Shown: positions 13,692-59,719 of the stretch, in pieces
How the letters are laid out: every line of letters begins with the position of its first letter
How positions within the stretch are numbered: the first letter of the stretch is position 1
Source of the DNA: Deltaproteobacteria bacterium GWA2_38_16
Lineage (GTDB): Bacteria; Bdellovibrionota; JACOXK01; 2-02-FULL-40-11
NCBI GenBank assembly: GCA_001797335.1
Contig: MGPE01000013.1
Coordinates: 14,853-78,852, forward strand
Direction of reading: 5' to 3'
Length of the DNA stretch: 64,000 bases
Notes under the pieces: generated by a model
What the model was told of the DNA's origin: nothing
Seen by the model: only the letters and a program-made list of their open reading frames with translations
The model's database searches: none
Program-made: the position numbers and the translations under genes

Positions 13692-14923
13692 TTGTGCGAC
13701 ACCTTTTCTGTATCAATAGTAAACGTGGTGGCAGGAGCCATCATTTTTCCATTAGAACTTTGAATGGCAAAAAGGCTGACATCTAAGGTTCGATACGCGG
13801 TTTCAATAAGGGGTAATTCAACAGAACTTTTCTTTAATGGCCCTAGAGGAACCTGAGTTTTTTGAGGGGGTAAAGGTAAAAGCTTCTTTTTAGCAGCTGC
13901 TGGCATTTTCCCCTCTTTTGGAGTTAGAGAAAGTTCTGCAAAGTAAAGAGCTTGTTTACTGTATTTAGGCATTTTCCAGTTTAAAACAACTTTTCCGTTT
14001 TCAAGCTTTATGTCTCTATTTAAAACAATGACGTTTTTGTTGGCTTTCCACCGAAGCTCCATCAGAGATCCTTCTTGAGTTACGAGATAAAGCTTTTGAT
14101 GAGCCAGAGAAAAGCCTGCAGGTGGGTGTTTATATAAGTGAGCGTATTGAAAATCTTGATTAGGAGAATATTTTCCAATGATCATTTGTTTTTCCCAATC
14201 AATAATGTGAAGAGAATATTTTGGATCTATGGTTACTAAAAGCTCTCGACTCACATAAAATCCACTCTTAATTTGTGTTTTGGGCAAGGTTAATTCTTTG
14301 ATAATTTCTTGTGGATGTTCGGGATCTATTTCTACAAGAATGGTGTCTTTGTCTTGAGAAAGCGATAGCGTTAAGAAATGGGTTTGTGGATTGTCCCACA
14401 TTTCTTCAACAGTCATATTTTGAGGGATCATGTCTACAAATCCCAAGGATTTTATGACTGGAACGGTTGTTGAAATATCAATGACCTTCATTTCTCTATT
14501 TTGGCATAGGCCATAAAGTTTTTTGGGTGAATCGGGATGAGGGCTTAAGGCAACTATAGGACTTTGGAGATACGATTTTAAATTAAAAAATTCGTCCGAT
14601 TTTTTTTGGCCCACTGAAATTTGAATGAGATTAAATCCCTCACTGATATAGAGAGTTTCTGTTTGAGGAGAGATAGTCATGGCAGAAATGGTTTTAGAAA
14701 ATTGTCTAAGCAGTGTTTTTAAATCAAGAGATGTGGCCGTTAAAACTGTAGCATTTTCAAATAGGCGTTCATTATTAAACGTTTCTTGATCTAAGGCTAC
14801 TAACGTAGGTTCTGTGAGAAAAAATACATGGCGGCCTTTTTGTTCACTTTCTCTTTGAAAGTAAACCAGGCTTACACATATAACTACCAGTGCTGTTCCT
14901 ATCATTAAAATATATCGAGACAT
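13688..14923 (-). CDS. Membrane-anchored beta-propeller-like protein with C-terminal FnIII-like domain
   Basis: Product of 411 residues. One N-terminal TM segment (YILMIGTALVVICVSLVYF) probably anchors it in the inner membrane facing the periplasm. Residues of about 35-290 contain repeated beta-strand blocks with motifs of the ALSPHPDSPKKLYGLC type, as in YVTN/WD-like propellers. The C-terminal part resembles a fibronectin type III module, with a Pro/Lys-rich stretch. No enzyme motif is visible. It is the first gene of the operon, behind a consensus promoter (14975-15002), and overlaps the HAMP gene by 4 bases. Confidence 0.6.
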   Translation of the reverse strand: MSRYILMIGTALVVICVSLVYFQRESEQKGRHVFFLTEPTLVALDQETFNNERLFENATVLTATSLDLKTLLRQFSKTISAMTISPQTETLYISEGFNLIQISVGQKKSDEFFNLKSYLQSPIVALSPHPDSPKKLYGLCQNREMKVIDISTTVPVIKSLGFVDMIPQNMTVEEMWDNPQTHFLTLSLSQDKDTILVEIDPEHPQEIIKELTLPKTQIKSGFYVSRELLVTIDPKYSLHIIDWEKQMIIGKYSPNQDFQYAHLYKHPPAGFSLAHQKLYLVTQEGSLMELRWKANKNVIVLNRDIKLENGKVVLNWKMPKYSKQALYFAELSLTPKEGKMPAAAKKKLLPLPPQKTQVPLGPLKKSSVELPLIETAYRTLDVSLFAIQSSNGKMMAPATTFTIDTEKVSHK

Positions 14924-15002: not shown

Positions 15003-15021
15003 TTTTTGCCAACTTGCTCTA

Positions 15022-15078
15022 TGTCATTCTGAGCGAAGCGAAGAATCTCAGAGATCCCTCGCTATGCTCGGGATGACA
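15022..15078. repeat. REP-like palindrome of the GTCATTCTGAGCGAAGCGAAG family
   Basis: Starts TGTCATTCTGAGCGAAGCG and ends CTCGGGATGACA, so the two ends are complementary. Related copies in this window lie at 26127-26216, 39973-40000, 54894-54963 and 55018-55043. The family is widespread in bacterial genomes. Confidence 0.85.
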
Positions 15079-15201
15079 GAGGCGCACTTTTTGCTAAATT
15101 GGGAAAGGTGCTCAGGAGACAGACGCGTACATAAAATATATAGTTATATTCAATAGTTATATAATAAATAGAGGTATAAGATTTTATATTTGATTAAATC
15201 C

Positions 15202-15226
15202 TTTACGCTTTTAAAAAGAGTGTAAA
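15202..15226. promoter_or_regulatory. Imperfect palindrome, possible activator site upstream of the sigma-54 promoter
   Basis: TTTAC and GTAAA arms frame an A/T-rich centre. It lies about 106-130 bases before the predicted start at 15332, the usual distance for enhancer sites of NtrC-type activators. The link is by position only. Confidence 0.3.
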
Positions 15227-15305
15227 AAAGATGTTTAAGCGTGGCCATATATCTAAGTATTTATTTTTCTTAATTAATTTAAATTATGAGGATTTCTGAT
15301 CAGCT

Positions 15306-15321
15306 TGGCACAACCCTTGCT
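15306..15321 (+). promoter_or_regulatory. Perfect sigma-54 promoter before a putative small RNA
   Basis: TGGCACAACCCTTGCT fits the -24/-12 consensus (TGGCAC N5 TTGCT) at every informative base, with GG and GC 10 bases apart. The expected start is about 15332. There is no open reading frame with a ribosome site downstream before the terminator at 15407-15448. Confidence 0.75.
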
Positions 15322-15331
15322 TCCTTTGGCC

Positions 15332-15448
15332 TTTGTAAAATTCTCAGAAGCATATCTAAGAACACCTTCTGTCAAATTTTACACAACACAACGATACCTT
15401 ATTATTGAAACGGTTTAGGTCGCCCGGCCTAGACCGTTTCTTTTTTTT
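15332..15448 (+). ncRNA. Putative sigma-54-dependent small RNA, about 117 nt
   Basis: The segment between a perfect -24/-12 element and a strong intrinsic terminator has the layout of a trans-acting small RNA. A 5' stem-loop begins within 3 bases of the predicted start: TGTAAAATT with AATTTTACA (15334-15342/15375-15383) and CAGAAG with CTTCTG (15345-15350/15366-15371). An unpaired A/C-rich stretch follows (15384-15406), then a 13-bp terminator stem and eight T. No plausible ORF is present. No known RNA family is recognised. Transcription has to be shown. Confidence 0.6.
15407..15448 (+). terminator. Rho-independent terminator of the putative small RNA
   Basis: GAAACGGTTTAGG (15407-15419) pairs with CCTAGACCGTTTC (15428-15440), 13 pairs with one G-U, loop of 8, then a run of eight T. 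It has no protein gene upstream on this strand, so it needs another transcript to explain it. Confidence 0.85.
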
Positions 15449-15450
15449 GT

Positions 15451-15572
15451 ATACTGTTGAAAAAGGCTCATCTGCGTTGTTGCCCTCGTCGGCTCTCCTT
15501 CAACGTACCACTCAAGTACGCCTCAGTCGCGCCTCCTCGGGCGCCTAGCATCTGAACCTTTTTGAACAGTAT
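15451..15572. repeat. 122-bp palindromic element
   Basis: Ends are near-complementary: ATACTGTTGAAAAAGGCTCA at the left and CTTTTTGAACAGTAT at the right. The GC-rich interior (CCTCGTCGGCTCTCC, then GCGCCTCCTCGGGCGCC) contrasts with the A/T-rich surroundings. From memory, very similar elements ending TTGAACAG recur in deltaproteobacterial genomes. Only one copy is in this window. Confidence 0.65.
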
Positions 15573-15705
15573 GCTCTTTGTGAAAATTAGTGACGATTTT
15601 GGGCACAGTGTTTAAAAAATAAGCCTCATTTCCAATCCTCTTTCTTTTGGTGAAAAATGGAAAATCCTGAGTTGTTTCTTTAGCTTATCATGTAAATATT
15701 TAAAG

Positions 15706-15763: not shown

Positions 15764-16960
15764 ATGAGAAAACTATTTTTAATTATTATTATGATGGGTT
15801 TAATGGCCAGTGGTTGTAGCCCAAAATTAGGAGGATCTGACCAGCCATCAACCCCTAAAACAAATCAACCTTCTCAGCAACAACAAGAAGAAGAGTCTGC
15901 TCAACCTCAAGAAGATGAAGATGAAGTTTCAGGCAATATTTTACCCCCTAAAAAAGAAGATGACGAAGACGAAAACAAAAAAGATGAGGACAAAGAAGAT
16001 ATAGCTTTAGAAGATAAATCTTCTAAAGATGATTCGTCTTCTAATAATACGATAGAAGAAGATAAAAATATTTCGAATGAAGTAACGATGAGTGATAGTG
16101 AAAGACCGGCTCCTTATACAGATGTTTTTGTAGCTCCTGATAATAAAAGCAGTGAAGTCGCTGTTGATGATTACAATCATAAATTAGTGGGATTTGCTTG
16201 GATGGTTGGAGGAGGTTTGGTATTCGGCACTTCTATGGCAGTAGATCGAATTGGGACAAGACTCTATGATGTTTTTAGTAGATTACAACCAGGTATTGCG
16301 GCGCTACAGTTTCGAGAACATCGACAAATTTATAATATTACTCTTAAGGCGATGGAAAAGCTTCATATCCGAAAAAATGTGGCTAAAAAAATTCTTCGAA
16401 AATTTATGTATGCAGGTTCAGCCAGAGCTTTATCTGTAAAAAGAGGTGGTTCTAAAATCCTTCAGTGGCTTGGAAGGGCAGGTAAAGTGGGTGGGGCCGT
16501 GATATCTGTTTTTGGGGTTATTGAAATGGTTTTGGAACCCACAGACCTAGCAGATGCAGAGATTCGTCCTGAGGATAGATTTGAAGATTTAAAGCGGGCC
16601 GTATTTTCTTTAGAAGAAAATCCTCAAGATAAAAATATTCAAGATTGTGTTTTGAGATCTGTGATTAGTTATTTACCAGATGTCATTAATTCTTTAAAGC
16701 TTGAGTATAATGAATATTTTTATGCTTTAGAAGAAGCAATGGCTAATCAAGAGCTCAGTTCGGAAGATAAAGAAACAGCTCAAAAAGAGTTTAATGAATT
16801 TGAAGTAGAGCAGACAAAACTGATTGATTTTTTTCAGAATAGTTTAGAAACCTTGAGTCGGCTGTACTACGCCACGGATGTAGATCGTTCTCATGCAAAT
16901 GAGATTTTAAAAGAAAATGTTCAAAAGTTAGAACAAATTCTTGAAGAGAAACAATCATAA
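15764..16960 (+). CDS. Lipoprotein of unknown family (tandem paralog 1)
   Basis: Product of 398 residues. The signal peptide MRKLFLIIIMMGLMASGC ends in a lipobox (MASGC), so the mature protein is lipid-anchored. A very acidic, Gln/Glu/Asp-rich linker of about 100 residues follows. The rest is a folded region with two hydrophobic helices (FAWMVGGGLVFGTSM and VGGAVISVFGVIEMVLEP) and a helical, charged C-terminus. The core LADAEIRPEDRFEDLKRA...LPDVINSLKLEYN is shared with the next gene. AGGAGG precedes the ATG. No characterised family is recognised. The hydrophobic helices suggest insertion into a membrane. Confidence 0.75.
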   Translation: MRKLFLIIIMMGLMASGCSPKLGGSDQPSTPKTNQPSQQQQEEESAQPQEDEDEVSGNILPPKKEDDEDENKKDEDKEDIALEDKSSKDDSSSNNTIEEDKNISNEVTMSDSERPAPYTDVFVAPDNKSSEVAVDDYNHKLVGFAWMVGGGLVFGTSMAVDRIGTRLYDVFSRLQPGIAALQFREHRQIYNITLKAMEKLHIRKNVAKKILRKFMYAGSARALSVKRGGSKILQWLGRAGKVGGAVISVFGVIEMVLEPTDLADAEIRPEDRFEDLKRAVFSLEENPQDKNIQDCVLRSVISYLPDVINSLKLEYNEYFYALEEAMANQELSSEDKETAQKEFNEFEVEQTKLIDFFQNSLETLSRLYYATDVDRSHANEILKENVQKLEQILEEKQS

Positions 16961-51524: not shown

Positions 51525-51531
51525 TTAACGA
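51514..51531. terminator. Short hairpin across two convergent stop codons
   Basis: TCGTTAA (51514-51520) and TTAACGA (51525-51531) pair perfectly with a 4-base loop. It includes the stop codons of the nucleotidase gene and the opposing secreted-protein gene. Too short to be a sure terminator. Confidence 0.35.
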
Positions 51532-51929
51532 GGTCGTTCTTCTCCGACATCTACGCTTGCCGTGCCTTCAATAAGAACAGGTTCAATTGGAAGAGGGGTG
51601 CCAATGGGTGCTTCATAAGGTCCTGTATAAGTACAGGTAACCGTGTGGTACCCCACGACATTGGCAATGTATCGGCCAAAGTCATCAATGAGCCCAGCCG
51701 ATGTGGTCCAACATCCTGTCAGATCTAGATCTTTAAGCCAGTTTCCATCTTTATCATACGCACGAGCTGTAAACTCCACTTCCCCTCCATACCGTGTAAA
51801 CGCCATGGGTGGAAATACCTGAATAGAAGCAACAGTAACGGGAGCAGGATCATTGCCATTGTCTGCAAAGATAGGAATAACGACCAGAAAACTAAAAGCA
51901 ATTAAACTGAAAAAAAGAACTTTTTTCAT
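51525..51929 (-). CDS. Small secreted protein with Ig-like fold (BIG2-like)
   Basis: Product of 134 residues with a signal peptide (VLFFSLIAFSFLVVIPIFA). The mature part looks like a single bacterial Ig-like domain: VASIQVFPPMAFTRYGGEVEFTARAYDKDGN followed by WTTSAGLIDDFGRY, the pattern of invasin/intimin-type BIG2 repeats, with two Cys that may pair. Function is not evident; such domains often mediate surface contact. It stands alone on the minus strand, convergent with the nucleotidase gene. Confidence 0.7.
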   Translation of the reverse strand: MKKVLFFSLIAFSFLVVIPIFADNGNDPAPVTVASIQVFPPMAFTRYGGEVEFTARAYDKDGNWLKDLDLTGCWTTSAGLIDDFGRYIANVVGYHTVTCTYTGPYEAPIGTPLPIEPVLIEGTASVDVGEERPR

Positions 51930-52010
51930 AAACGATACCCTCCGAATATAACTATAAAGCCTAAAAATCTTTCTTTACAAGCATAAAATTGGCGTGTTAA
52001 AAACTCTACT

Positions 52011-54981: not shown

Positions 54982-55006
54982 CAACAGATGTTGTATTTTT
55001 GCAACA
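54982..55006. promoter_or_regulatory. Candidate activator site upstream of the lpxC sigma-54 promoter
   Basis: CAACA-GA-TGTTG (54982-54993) is a perfect palindrome, followed after 8 bases by another CAACA (55002-55006). It lies about 137-161 bases before the predicted start. NtrX-type proteins are reported to favour CAA...TTG sites. The link is an inference. Confidence 0.35.
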
Positions 55007-55017
55007 CTTTTGCTTGC

Positions 55018-55043
55018 GTCATCCTGAACGAAGTGAAGGATAT
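55018..55043. repeat. REP-like half element
   Basis: GTCATCCTGAACGAAGTGAA followed by GGATAT: one arm of the same family, without a nearby partner arm. Confidence 0.7.
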
Positions 55044-55115
55044 TGTATAGATTAACTCATTGAATTTACTTAATAAAATAAATTTTATTGCTTTTTTTAA
55101 AGAAAAAAGAAATAG

Positions 55116-55131
55116 TGGCACAGCTTTTGCT
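55116..55131 (+). promoter_or_regulatory. Perfect sigma-54 promoter before lpxC
   Basis: TGGCACAGCTTTTGCT fits the -24/-12 consensus at every informative base. The expected start (about 55142) is only 11 bases before the lpxC ATG, so the mRNA would be nearly leaderless. The A/T-rich palindrome 55072-55089 upstream could favour DNA bending. Confidence 0.75.
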
Positions 55132-55152
55132 CATATTTAACTGTGCAAGATT

Positions 55153-56067
55153 ATGGATTTTCAAAAAACCATTCGAAAGGCAATTCAATTTAAGGGTATT
55201 GGACTTCATACTGGAAAATCTTCTGAAGTAACTCTAAAGCCTGCCTTGGCTGATACAGGAATTGTTTTTATTCGAACGGATATTTCTAAGAAAATTTCTA
55301 TTCCTGCCTTAAATCACTTTGTTGTGGATACGACACTCTCTACTACTCTAGGAAAAAATGGGGTAACGATTGCAACCGTTGAGCATTTGATGTCTGCTTT
55401 GTGGGGATTAGGGATTGATAATGCAGAAATTGAAGTAAATGGACCTGAAATTCCTATTCTCGATGGCAGTAGCTTTGAATTTGTTCGAAAAATTCAAAAA
55501 ACAGGTGTTATAGAGCTAGATCGTTTAAAAAAGATGCTCGTGATTACAGAACCGGTATCGATTTCTGATGGAGATCGATCTTGCTCTTTGTTAAGATCTC
55601 GATCTTCAAAAATTTCATGTATGATTGAGTTTAATCATCCGCTGATTCAAAAACAAAAATTTTTAATGAAGCTTACTCCGAAAAATTTTATTGAATATAT
55701 TGCCGAAGCCCGAACCTTTGGATTTTTAAAAGATGTAGAGAGATTACGTGCTCAAGGCTTGATTGCCGGTGGATCTTTAGAGAATGCGGTGGTGTTAGAT
55801 GAAAAGCGGGTTTTAAATAAAGAAGGGCTGAGATATAAAGATGAGTTTGTACGCCACAAGGTGTTAGATGCCATTGGTGATTTGGCTTTGATGGGAGTTT
55901 GGGTGACTGGCCATTGGGTGAGCCATAAAGCGGGGCATGATCTTCATTATAAACTTATTCAAAAAGTGCTGACTCAAAAAGCCGGTTATCTTGTGGGGAT
56001 TCCCGAGGAAACAGCATATCAACGATTGTCAGAATTTCATTCTCTTTTCCAACCCGCTTCAGCATAA
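55153..56067 (+). CDS. lpxC: UDP-3-O-acyl-N-acetylglucosamine deacetylase LpxC
   Basis: Zinc enzyme for the committed step of lipid A synthesis, 304 residues. Zinc ligands: His78 in TVEHLMSALWGLGIDN and the later HKVLDAIGDLALMG motif (His and Asp). The proposed base Glu77 precedes His78. PEIPILDGSSFEF is also typical. Its presence indicates an LPS-type outer membrane. A perfect -24/-12 element lies upstream. In other Gram-negatives LpxC is mostly controlled by proteolysis, so sigma-54 control would be unusual. First gene of the operon with ntrY-ntrX. Confidence 0.96.
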   Translation: MDFQKTIRKAIQFKGIGLHTGKSSEVTLKPALADTGIVFIRTDISKKISIPALNHFVVDTTLSTTLGKNGVTIATVEHLMSALWGLGIDNAEIEVNGPEIPILDGSSFEFVRKIQKTGVIELDRLKKMLVITEPVSISDGDRSCSLLRSRSSKISCMIEFNHPLIQKQKFLMKLTPKNFIEYIAEARTFGFLKDVERLRAQGLIAGGSLENAVVLDEKRVLNKEGLRYKDEFVRHKVLDAIGDLALMGVWVTGHWVSHKAGHDLHYKLIQKVLTQKAGYLVGIPEETAYQRLSEFHSLFQPASA

Positions 56068-56089
56068 AACTTTACATAAAAACTGAGCG

Positions 56090-56118
56090 TTTACAGCATG
56101 ACAATGCTATTGTATACA
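56090..56118 (+). promoter_or_regulatory. Sigma-70 promoter candidate for ntrY
   Basis: TTTACA (56090-56095), 17 bases, TATACA (56113-56118). Its start would fall near 56125, just before the ATG at 56128, giving another almost leaderless message. Confidence 0.55.
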
Positions 56119-56127
56119 TTCAAGTAG

Positions 56128-58398
56128 ATGGAAGAAGCTCAAGTACTTAAACGCATGCAGCGCAAAGAACAACGGCGTCGCAAGCGTGAACGTATTATTA
56201 TTGTCACTTTGTCGCTCTTTTTTGCTGCATTAACCTATGCGGAAATTCACCTGACCTCTTTGGGAGGAAAGCTTCCTTTTATCAGCAGTGTTTTGTTTTT
56301 CGCTCTGATCAATGTAAATATTATTATTATTGGGCTTCTCATTTTTTTAGTTTTTAGAAATGTCATTAAGCTCTTTTGGGAAAGACACTCTCGTATTTTA
56401 GGATCAAAGTTAAAAACCAAATTGGTTGTGGTATTTGTTAGTTTTGCTCTTATTCCTTCAATTCTTTTATTTACGATCTCTGCTTTTTATATAGATAATA
56501 GTTTTGGAAAATGGTTTAGCTTTCAATTAACCAATTCTATCCAAGATGCCTTGGATGTACATAATAACTACTATCAAACGCTACGTGAAAAAGGTTTTCA
56601 TTTTGGAGACAATATCAGTAGTTATTTATTGCAACAAAAGCTCTTAAAGAAAAATCAACGACAGATCTTAGAAATAGCACTTAAAAATTTTCAAAAAGAT
56701 TATGCTCTGGATGCAATAGAAATTTTTTCTAATCTCGAAGGAAAAGGGATTGCCACTCGCAATCCAGATTTTAGACAAAAACCATTTCCACCTTTAGAGC
56801 AATCTTTTTTAAAAGAAGGATTTTTAGGAAGACAAGCTTCTATTGTACAGCATGTCAAAGAGGGAGATTTGGTTCGATGTGTAATGCCTGTGTATGAAGA
56901 TGTTTTAAAGAAAAAAGTTATTGCAGCGTTAGTGATTAGTTCTTATGTCTCTCCACAAATTGTTGAAAAAGTAGCAAAAATTAATTCCACCTATAATGAA
57001 TATAGAGAAGTAAAACCCTTAAAAAAATCTCTAAAAGCCATTTATTTTACTCTGTTACTCCTTATGACCCTTCTTATTATTTTTACAGCGGTATGGTTGG
57101 GATTTCATTTGGCTAGAGAGCTTACCATCCCTATTCAAAGGCTAGTAGAAGGAACCCAGGAAGTAGCACAACGAAATTTGGATGTTCAAATTCAGTATGA
57201 GGGGAAAGATGAGCTTTCAATGCTGGTGCGGTCTTTTAATAAAATGACTCAGGATCTTAAAGGGAATAGCCAGAAACTGGCGTTAGCATATGCAGAGCTT
57301 CAAAAAACAAATACGGAATTAGGAGATAGCAGTCGGTATAGTGAAGCTATTTTAAAAAATATTAAAGCAGGAGTTGTTTCTGTTAATTCCCAAGGAATGA
57401 TTACAACCATTAATAAGGCAGCAGAAGAACTTTTAGGGATTAAGGCTTATAAATATATGGGGACTTCTTATCAAAAAGTATTGCCTTTAGAATATTTAAA
57501 ATTGGTTGAAGAAATGCTTCAAGAATCTCCGGAGGTATCGGAACATACAGTTGGAAGACAAATTAAAATTCAAGTTCAAGGGAAAGATCTTACGTTGTTG
57601 GTGAGCGTTACCATGATGAGAGACGAAGATGGGAAATATTTAGGGATGGTGTTGGTCCTTGATAATTTAACCGATTTGATCAAAGCTCAGCGGGTAGCTG
57701 CTTGGAGAGAAGTGGCTAGACGCATTGCGCATGAAATTAAGAATCCTCTGACTCCTATTAAATTGTCTGCTCAAAGACTTCGTCGAAAATATCTTTCATC
57801 AGCAGATCAGGTGTTTGATGAATGTACGAAAATGATTATTACTCAGGTGGATGAGCTTAAAGAATTGGTTAATGAATTTTCTCAATTTGCAAAGCTTCCA
57901 GAAGCCAATCCTCGTCCGTCTCATCTTCAAGCGATTGTGAAAGAGGCTTTAACCCTCTATCAAGAGGCCCATAAACATATTATTTTTGAGTATGTGGAAC
58001 ATCATCCGATCCCCTTGATGGAGCTTGATCGCGAACAAATGAAACGTGTTTTTATTAATATTTTTGATAATGCAGTTTCTGCCATTTCTGGTAAAGGAAG
58101 AGTAGCTGTAGAGGTTCGATATTATTCGGCTTTACAATTGGTGATCATTGAGATATCCGACTCTGGATCAGGGATTTCAGAAGAGGTTAAATCTCGGTTA
58201 TTTGAGCCTTATTTCTCAACTAAAAAAGAAGGAACAGGTTTGGGACTGTCCATTGTTAGAAAAATTATTTCGGATCATCAAGGATATATTCGGGTGACCA
58301 ATCATAAACCTCAGGGAACTAAATTTATTATTGAACTCCCTATTACGTTGACACAACGAGAACCGTATCATGAAGAGAAACCACATCTTAGTAGTTGA
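56128..58398 (+). CDS. ntrY: Sensor histidine kinase, NtrY type
   Basis: Product of 756 residues. TM helices at about 25-90 and 100-130, a periplasmic or extracytoplasmic sensor part, TM around 310-330, HAMP (ARELTIPIQRLVEGTQEVAQ), PAS (about 410-510), and the kinase core. The H box is RRIAHEIKNPLTPIKLSAQR (phospho-His near 535), the N box NIFDNAVSAI, then DSGSGIS and GTGLGLSIV. The H box with KNPLTPI is typical of NtrY. It overlaps the regulator gene by 29 bases. It probably phosphorylates that protein; the signal is unknown. Confidence 0.92.
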   Translation: MEEAQVLKRMQRKEQRRRKRERIIIVTLSLFFAALTYAEIHLTSLGGKLPFISSVLFFALINVNIIIIGLLIFLVFRNVIKLFWERHSRILGSKLKTKLVVVFVSFALIPSILLFTISAFYIDNSFGKWFSFQLTNSIQDALDVHNNYYQTLREKGFHFGDNISSYLLQQKLLKKNQRQILEIALKNFQKDYALDAIEIFSNLEGKGIATRNPDFRQKPFPPLEQSFLKEGFLGRQASIVQHVKEGDLVRCVMPVYEDVLKKKVIAALVISSYVSPQIVEKVAKINSTYNEYREVKPLKKSLKAIYFTLLLLMTLLIIFTAVWLGFHLARELTIPIQRLVEGTQEVAQRNLDVQIQYEGKDELSMLVRSFNKMTQDLKGNSQKLALAYAELQKTNTELGDSSRYSEAILKNIKAGVVSVNSQGMITTINKAAEELLGIKAYKYMGTSYQKVLPLEYLKLVEEMLQESPEVSEHTVGRQIKIQVQGKDLTLLVSVTMMRDEDGKYLGMVLVLDNLTDLIKAQRVAAWREVARRIAHEIKNPLTPIKLSAQRLRRKYLSSADQVFDECTKMIITQVDELKELVNEFSQFAKLPEANPRPSHLQAIVKEALTLYQEAHKHIIFEYVEHHPIPLMELDREQMKRVFINIFDNAVSAISGKGRVAVEVRYYSALQLVIIEISDSGSGISEEVKSRLFEPYFSTKKEGTGLGLSIVRKIISDHQGYIRVTNHKPQGTKFIIELPITLTQREPYHEEKPHLSS

Positions 58399-59719
58399 CG
58401 ACGAAAAAAGTATTCGTAATGCCCTGCGTGATTTGTTGTCTGATGAGGGCTATCAAGTTTCTGAGGCATCGGATGGAAAGGGAGCGCTTCAGTTTTTAAC
58501 TAAAGAAAGTCCTGATATTATATTTTTAGATATTTGGATGCCTGGGATGGACGGTTTAGAAGTTTTAAAAGAAATAAAAGCAATCGATTCTCATTGCTCA
58601 GTTGTGATGATGTCTGGACACGGGAATATTGAAACAGCCGTTAAAGCGACAAAACTAGGAGCTTTTGATTTTATTGAAAAGCCGTTGTCTATTGATAAGC
58701 TTTTAGTTGTCATCAAAAATATTTTATCAGTTCAAGAACTCCAAGAAGAAAATAAGATGCTTCGTCAAAAAGTAAAGAATCAGTTTGAAATGGTGGTCTT
58801 TGGTTCTTTGATGAAATCTTTGCAAGAGCAGATTCAAGTAGCAGCTCCTACCCATAGTTGGATTTTAATTACGGGTGAAAATGGAACGGGAAAAGAATTA
58901 GTGGCAAGACAGATTCATGAACAAAGCTTGAGACAGAAAGAACCTTTTATTGAGGTTAATTGTGCTGCCATCCCAGAAGAACTTATTGAGTCGGAACTCT
59001 TTGGGCATGAAAAAGGAGCTTTTACAGGAGCCACAACCTCTAAAAAAGGAAAATTTGAGTTAGCAAATGGGGGGACATTATTTTTAGATGAAATTGGAGA
59101 TATGAGCTTAAAGACACAGGCTAAAATTTTACGGGTGTTGCAAGAACAAAAATTTGAGCGTGTAGGGGGAGCGGTAACTTTTAAAGTGGATGTGAGGGTG
59201 CTTGGGGCCACGAATAAAAACCTTCAAGAAGAAATTAAAGAAGGACATTTTCGAGAAGATTTATATTATCGACTGAATGTAATTCCCATCCATGTGCCAC
59301 CGTTAAGAGAACGAAGAGAAGATATTCTTTATTTGGTAAATTATTTTTTGCAGCAAATTGCTCAGGAAAATGGTAAGAAAATAAAACATATTTCTAACGA
59401 GGCTCTTGAAATTTTACAAAACTATGATTGGCCTGGGAATGTACGAGAACTCAAAAATATTATTGAAAGAGTATTTATTATGACACCATCACAAATTATT
59501 GAATGTGAAGATATTCCTACTTCTATTCGAGAATATGAAGGAGAAGTCCCTGTTCTGCCTCAGGATGATCTTCGCCATGCTCGAATGAAATTTGAAAAAG
59601 AATATATTTTTAAAAAATTAAAAGAATATGAAGGCAACGTTTCTAAAACAGCTAAAGCCATTGGAATGGAACGTACGAATCTTCATCGAAAAATAAAACA
59701 ATATCAAATTGAGATCTAA
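58370..59719 (+). CDS. ntrX: Sigma-54-dependent response regulator, NtrC/NtrX type
   Basis: Activator of 449 residues. Receiver with Asp54 (FLDIWMPGMDG), AAA+ domain with Walker A GENGTGKE, the sigma-54 contact loop GAFTGAT in FGHEKGAFTGATTSKKGK, Walker B LFLDEIGD, and a C-terminal Fis-type helix-turn-helix (VSKTAKAIGMERTNLHRKIKQ). The intact GAFTGA means it can act on sigma-54 promoters, several of which are seen in this window. ntrX fits its pairing with ntrY, but NtrC cannot be excluded. rpoN itself is not in the window. Confidence 0.92.
   Translation: MKRNHILVVDDEKSIRNALRDLLSDEGYQVSEASDGKGALQFLTKESPDIIFLDIWMPGMDGLEVLKEIKAIDSHCSVVMMSGHGNIETAVKATKLGAFDFIEKPLSIDKLLVVIKNILSVQELQEENKMLRQKVKNQFEMVVFGSLMKSLQEQIQVAAPTHSWILITGENGTGKELVARQIHEQSLRQKEPFIEVNCAAIPEELIESELFGHEKGAFTGATTSKKGKFELANGGTLFLDEIGDMSLKTQAKILRVLQEQKFERVGGAVTFKVDVRVLGATNKNLQEEIKEGHFREDLYYRLNVIPIHVPPLRERREDILYLVNYFLQQIAQENGKKIKHISNEALEILQNYDWPGNVRELKNIIERVFIMTPSQIIECEDIPTSIREYEGEVPVLPQDDLRHARMKFEKEYIFKKLKEYEGNVSKTAKAIGMERTNLHRKIKQYQIEI

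Follow-up and report, generated by a model that had tools for sequence, protein, structure and literature searches.

A putative sigma-54-driven small RNA with seeds complementary to ribosome-binding sites of exported-protein genes in uncultured 'Deltaproteobacteria'

The 64,000-nucleotide stretch of DNA analyzed here (the window) contains a conserved intergenic element that we read, with high confidence, as a sigma-54-driven, Hfq-less, trans-acting antisense RNA that would occlude the ribosome-binding sites of mRNAs for exported proteins. Two short segments within the conserved core of this small RNA (sRNA), seeds A and B, are exact complements of ribosome-binding sites present at dozens of exported-protein genes, and each is made up of an anti-Shine-Dalgarno core (ACCU) plus a specific tail of 4-6 nt. 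At the level of sequence, the conservation, the promoter and the complementarity are established. The locus has the following features.

15201 to 15227, plus strand: candidate enhancer (activator) site, dyad TTTAC-N15-GTAAA, starting 105 bases 5' of the -24 element
15306 to 15321, plus strand: sigma-54 promoter, -24 TGGCAC / -12 TTGCT, a perfect consensus that recurs in 8 of 8 homologous loci
15332 to 15448, plus strand: putative small RNA of about 117 nt, fold z -6.8, with covariance model matches; start placed by promoter spacing
15334 to 15383, plus strand: predicted 5' hairpin, 9 bp plus 6 bp, missing in G003
15360 to 15367, plus strand: seed B, GAACACCU, in the hairpin loop, complement of the ribosome-binding site AGGTGTTC
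15390 to 15399, plus strand: seed A, AACGAUACCU, in the unpaired linker, complement of the ribosome-binding site AGGTATCGTT, invariant in 8 of 8 homologues
15407 to 15448, plus strand: predicted intrinsic terminator, 15-bp stem plus T8, with covariation

The perfect -24/-12 element noticed in the preliminary description was confirmed as TGGCACAACCCTTGCT. The pattern TGGCAYN5TTGCW occurs twice in the window, compared with 0.07 expected from the shuffled window, and TGGCA[CT]N5TTGCT is present at the same place in all eight homologous loci, with the -24 GG, the -12 GC and their spacing identical and the flanking sequence divergent. Fixed spacing of these elements, rpoN (found in G000) and encoded enhancer-binding proteins (about ten PF00158 matches among the sigma-54 activators of G000) are features of a sigma-54 transcription unit. 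With the promoter kept at every locus and rpoN encoded, the proposal of a sigma-54-driven small RNA is well supported. As had also been stated, no credible ORF lies between the neighboring genes, one ending at 14923 (minus strand) and the other starting at 15764. The RNA at 15332-15449 folds with -35.1 kcal/mol (z -6.8), and none of 200 shuffled sequences was equally stable. Its 5' stem-loop is as described, pairing 15334-15342 with 15375-15383 (9 bp) and 15345-15350 with 15366-15371 (6 bp), and the linker between hairpin and terminator is present and unpaired. The terminator and its eight T (15441-15448) were likewise borne out, but its stem, first given as 13 bp, is 15 bp long (15407-15421 with 15426-15440). 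Repeat-like elements reading CATTCTGAGCGAAGCGAAGAATCTC...GGGATGACAG and GTTGAAAAAGGCTCATCTGCGTTG... are found on both sides of the sRNA gene (15020-15080 and 15450-15575), and the second is also located 3' of the sRNA in G005.

A covariance search in relatives, proposed in the preliminary description as a check, recovered promoter, core and terminator in 8 genomes. The model matched 8 of 368 phylum genomes (E 1e-30 to 5e-11), and BLAST against 59 relatives returned the same eight: all sampled genomes of the same family except one, the pair from a second family within the class, and G010 from another class. A scan of 84,980 species genomes for the core pattern gave 7 records, all from uncultured groundwater or RIFCSP 'Deltaproteobacteria', and the sRNA was not seen in the other genome lineages scanned beyond the 8 phylum genomes. 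Rfam showed no relevant match for the sRNA at gathering or at permissive thresholds. In the alignment of the eight homologues, the promoter is invariant and the core GAACACCTTCTGTCAAATTTTACACAACACAACGATACC is almost invariant; the terminator stem varies in sequence with its pairing preserved, 10 of 14 pairs being changed on both sides. Judged by its sequence, the promoter-hairpin-terminator element is not due to chance. G003 has lost the hairpin's 5' arm but retains an intact core with both seeds, which argues that the core is under stronger constraint than the hairpin. Seed A is predicted to be unpaired with a probability of 0.84-0.98 and is largely unpaired in the folds of all eight homologues, in which seed B lies partly within the hairpin loop. 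It is also evident that in family f1 and in G010 the sRNA gene adjoins the same operon on the opposite strand, encoding a HAMP protein, a 145-aa protein and an outer-membrane-like protein, and this shared neighbor suggests old vertical inheritance. The genome-wide model search did not find the sRNA in G002, a member of the same family; the HAMP-protein match there lies in a different gene neighborhood and was set aside as uninformative on this absence. Hfq (PF17209), on which enterobacterial trans-acting sRNAs usually depend and which is not essential to the class, was detected in none of 12 phylum genomes (G000-G007, G009-G011 and G014), near-complete ones included, with the control genomes positive.

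The preliminary description had named GlmY/GlmZ as models and a gene at 58370 as the matching activator. That gene does encode an NtrX-like protein (58370-59719), part of an NtrY-NtrX-like pair (56128-59719), but its role as activator of the sRNA is not supported. The lpxC-ntrY-ntrX operon (54989-59719) has its own perfect sigma-54 promoter (55116-55131) with the palindrome TGTTGTATTTTTGCAACA upstream. Promoter and box recur at the same operon in G003, G006 and G007, four genomes in all, the TGTTG-N8-CAACA box being perfect in three of the four and carrying 1 mismatch in the other; this recurrence suggests NtrX autoregulation coupled to LPS synthesis. The box is absent upstream of the sRNA promoters, where four family members (the window, G001, G004 and G005) carry a different dyad, TTTTAC-N14..16-GTAAAA with 0-2 mismatches, at the same -105 position; among the upstream regions of the sRNA homologues, those of class f2 and of G010 do not have this dyad. 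NtrX was therefore rejected as the sRNA activator, which is probably another protein. GlmY/GlmZ act on glmS through RapZ. That the sRNA is a GlmY/GlmZ-like regulator switched on by the window's NtrYX pair is thus unlikely: the sigma-54 promoter and the presence of the pair would agree with it, but the sRNA has neither an Rfam covariance match nor a sequence match to GlmY/GlmZ and lacks the lpxC-ntrYX box upstream, and the model does not fit a core that complements the ribosome-binding sites of many mRNAs.

Ribosome-binding sites were examined because a weak "second copy" of the sRNA in G006 (C19:8570) turned out to lie antisense to a gene start; it was rejected as a copy and is a target candidate. 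In G000, GGTATCGTT is found at most 14 nt from a start codon 18 times, compared with 4 for the reversed pattern. We then compared seven genomes with the sRNA (G000, G001 and G003-G007; 11.5 Mb) with 20 genomes without it (51.4 Mb). The word GGTATCGTT immediately 5' of ATG (GGTATCGTTATG) occurs 23 times in the former and 4 times in the latter (P = 9e-14), and GGAGGTGTTC precedes the start codon of 18 genes in the former and 4 in the latter (P = 2e-10). Predicted target leaders are accordingly of two types, GGAGGTATCGTTATG and GGAGGTGTTC-N-ATG. As an unbiased check, word counts that made no use of the sRNA were taken over 782 genes called in a 43% sample of G000, the genomes being draft, the gene calls heuristic and the signal-peptide caller a simple hydrophobicity rule. 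No other 9-mer in this sample ends 0-3 nt ahead of a start codon as often as GGTATCGTT, and all six of its cases are signal-peptide genes. Similarly, GGAGGTAT is found in 10 of 210 signal-peptide genes and in 0 of 572 others (P = 2e-6). Scanning the whole sRNA with 8-mers, we found windows that favor signal-peptide genes at AACGATACCT (15390-15399) and GAACACCT (15360-15367); the remaining windows with matches had few of them or were terminator-T words favoring other genes or neither class. Seed B by itself is not significant within the G000 sample. The total duplex energy of the core at gene starts showed no excess over shuffled cores, so exact seed words were used, and the case rests on these words. 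A search with the 22-base complement, allowing 3 mismatches, returned almost only the sRNA gene itself. Seed A is kept in G010, yet no real gene there was found to carry an exact seed-A ribosome-binding site; seed-target covariation in that genome, through a loop seed that differs (GAAUACCUCC), was rejected since the matching site GGAGGTATTC is not enriched. One seed-B gene was found in G002, although the sRNA was not.

Genes with a seed-A site nearly all encode signal-peptide proteins; in G000 two genes depart from this, one PolX-like and one protein kinase-like, the latter with a longer spacer. One predicted target lies in the window.

51525 to 51942, minus strand: predicted target, gene for a secreted protein of 134 aa whose ribosome-binding site and start read GGAGGGTATCGTTTATG

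Orthologues of this gene in G001, G003 and G004 keep the site, and orthologous targets retain a site across two families. In two orthologue clusters (L206 of G000 with L165 of G003, and L081 of G000 with genes of G001 and G005), one genome has a seed-A-type site and another a seed-B site, a swap that is hard to explain without the sRNA. The products of seed-B genes include exported proteins as well as a sigma-28-like factor, the latter in G001, G004 and G005. This factor gene carries both a sigma-54 promoter and the seed-B site in those genomes (L232, L189 and L190, respectively), and in G000 the seed-B site is absent from it. Among the predicted duplexes, an mRNA of G006 pairs over about 45 nt, from the ribosome-binding site to about codon 10 (-51 kcal/mol), and an mRNA of G004 engages both seeds at once with the intervening sRNA segment looped out (-28 kcal/mol). 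At L016:8560-8622 (G006:C19, minus strand), the start of a gene is antisense to the sRNA core over about 35-45 nt; it encodes a secreted HEFFH-containing protein and adjoins bacterial microcompartment-like shell genes. A gene start of this kind, copied in antisense, may have given rise to the sRNA.

It could be argued that AGGTATCGTT-ATG is merely the word this clade favors for exported genes, or a protein-bound site, and that the sRNA is an antisense copy or mimic of it with one or few targets. The reverse complement of the core does resemble a gene start (AAGGTATCGTT GTG TTG TGT AAA ...), and the G006 gene matches it at length. We nevertheless regard this explanation as quite unlikely, because two distinct words complementary to distinct parts of the sRNA are both enriched, orthologues switch between them, and relatives that lack the sRNA seldom contain either.

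The genes addressed overlap in kind with those served by sigma-54 itself. About 41 perfect sigma-54 promoters are found in the G000 sample of ~0.9 Mb (loci L075-L094, L191-L210 and L238), and of the 30 that have a gene close by, we count about 22 in front of genes for exported proteins, so that sigma-54 seems here to be devoted to the exported proteome. Some sigma-54-promoter genes also carry seed sites (L082, L085, L193 and L207), and the sRNA may therefore take part in a feed-forward loop with the regulon of its own sigma factor; among seed-A targets there is one clear case of a sigma-54 promoter.

We propose that sigma-54 RNA polymerase and an enhancer-binding protein would produce a transcript of about 117 nt that stops at the intrinsic terminator. 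The single-stranded seeds in linker and loop would then pair with mRNA sites reading (GG)AGGTATCGTT-ATG or GGAGGTGTTC-(N)-ATG, spanning the Shine-Dalgarno sequence and the spacer, often up to the start codon. Translation should be blocked where pairing covers the Shine-Dalgarno sequence, and the mRNAs addressed would nearly all be those of signal-peptide proteins (periplasmic, outer-membrane, lipoprotein or secreted). We infer transcription, silencing and an inducing signal from this arrangement, in which the sRNA is very probably a global brake on proteins put into or through the envelope. The same complementarity would serve an RNA that raises expression, by protecting the mRNA or opening an inhibitory structure, and activating sRNAs are known; such a role is very unlikely, however, given that the paired stretch, from Shine-Dalgarno sequence through spacer to start codon, should exclude the 30S subunit. 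That the element is a leader RNA or attenuator is hardly credible, since, although promoter and terminator lie 5' of the lipoprotein gene at 15764 in the window, the downstream genes vary by subgroup and are often on the opposite strand, and the terminator is strong and conserved.

If the proposed brake operates, one RNA addresses a whole functional class, the exported proteins, in a lineage without detectable Hfq. We lean slightly toward the further reading that two ribosome-binding-site "barcodes" have been standardized on many exported-protein genes and are read by this one sRNA. On this reading much of the secretome would form one post-transcriptional regulon, overlying a sigma-54 regulon that mostly drives exported-protein genes. 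The sRNA regulons known so far come mostly from experiments on cultured species and involve short, diverse target sites. In the present case a regulon can be assigned from sequence alone, because one ribosome-binding site, nearly identical among the targets, is seldom found in relatives that lack the RNA. The seed-target code is directly testable, and a general method is suggested, namely to look for ribosome-binding-site words enriched only where a given intergenic RNA is present.

The sRNA has the properties of trans-acting sRNAs: its own promoter and terminator, a conserved structure, no ORF, and an unpaired conserved seed complementary to several distant mRNAs. The complementarity of its core to ribosome-binding sites resembles that of NfeR1/AbcR1, Qrr and RybB/MicA. 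In enterobacteria, RybB and MicA, sigma-E-driven and Hfq-dependent, each repress many envelope-protein mRNAs at or near translation starts through a short seed and varied target sites; unlike the sRNA described here, they have no standard target ribosome-binding site. Qrr of Vibrio is sigma-54-dependent, about 110 nt long and terminator-ended and pairs with several mRNAs, but is an Hfq-dependent quorum-sensing regulator, and the sRNA has no Rfam covariance match to it. The rhizobial NfeR1 (alpha-r14) and AbcR1/2 are multi-target RNAs whose unpaired anti-Shine-Dalgarno seeds bind at the translation starts of mRNAs that include those for periplasmic transport proteins, and NfeR1 is Hfq-independent (PMC10746234). 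NfeR1 is transcribed from a sigma-70 promoter and its seed is the generic CCUCCUCCC, whereas the seeds here combine ACCU with a specific tail and, unlike in NfeR1/AbcR, the target sites are near-uniform up to the start codon; the CCUCCUCCC motif is absent from the sRNA, which has no Rfam match to alpha-r14 or AbcR and showed no relation to them in sequence. Pxr of Myxococcus xanthus is a small structured RNA with a predicted sigma-54 promoter and upstream enhancer region in an Hfq-less host (PMC5684412). Compared by description, Pxr is reported only in myxobacteria, has three stem-loops and controls fruiting-body development, whereas the core reported here was confined, among the genomes scanned, to one group of uncultured 'Deltaproteobacteria'. 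A sigma-54-dependent promoter is also mentioned for enterobacterial glmY (PMC6075780). By analogy, the closest systems would be NfeR1 and AbcR1/2 in mode of action, and Pxr, Qrr and glmY in transcription. By the Rfam and motif comparisons, the sRNA belongs to none of NfeR1/AbcR, Qrr and GlmY/GlmZ. It is probably a new family, whose general mode of action is known and whose target code is unusual and near-uniform.
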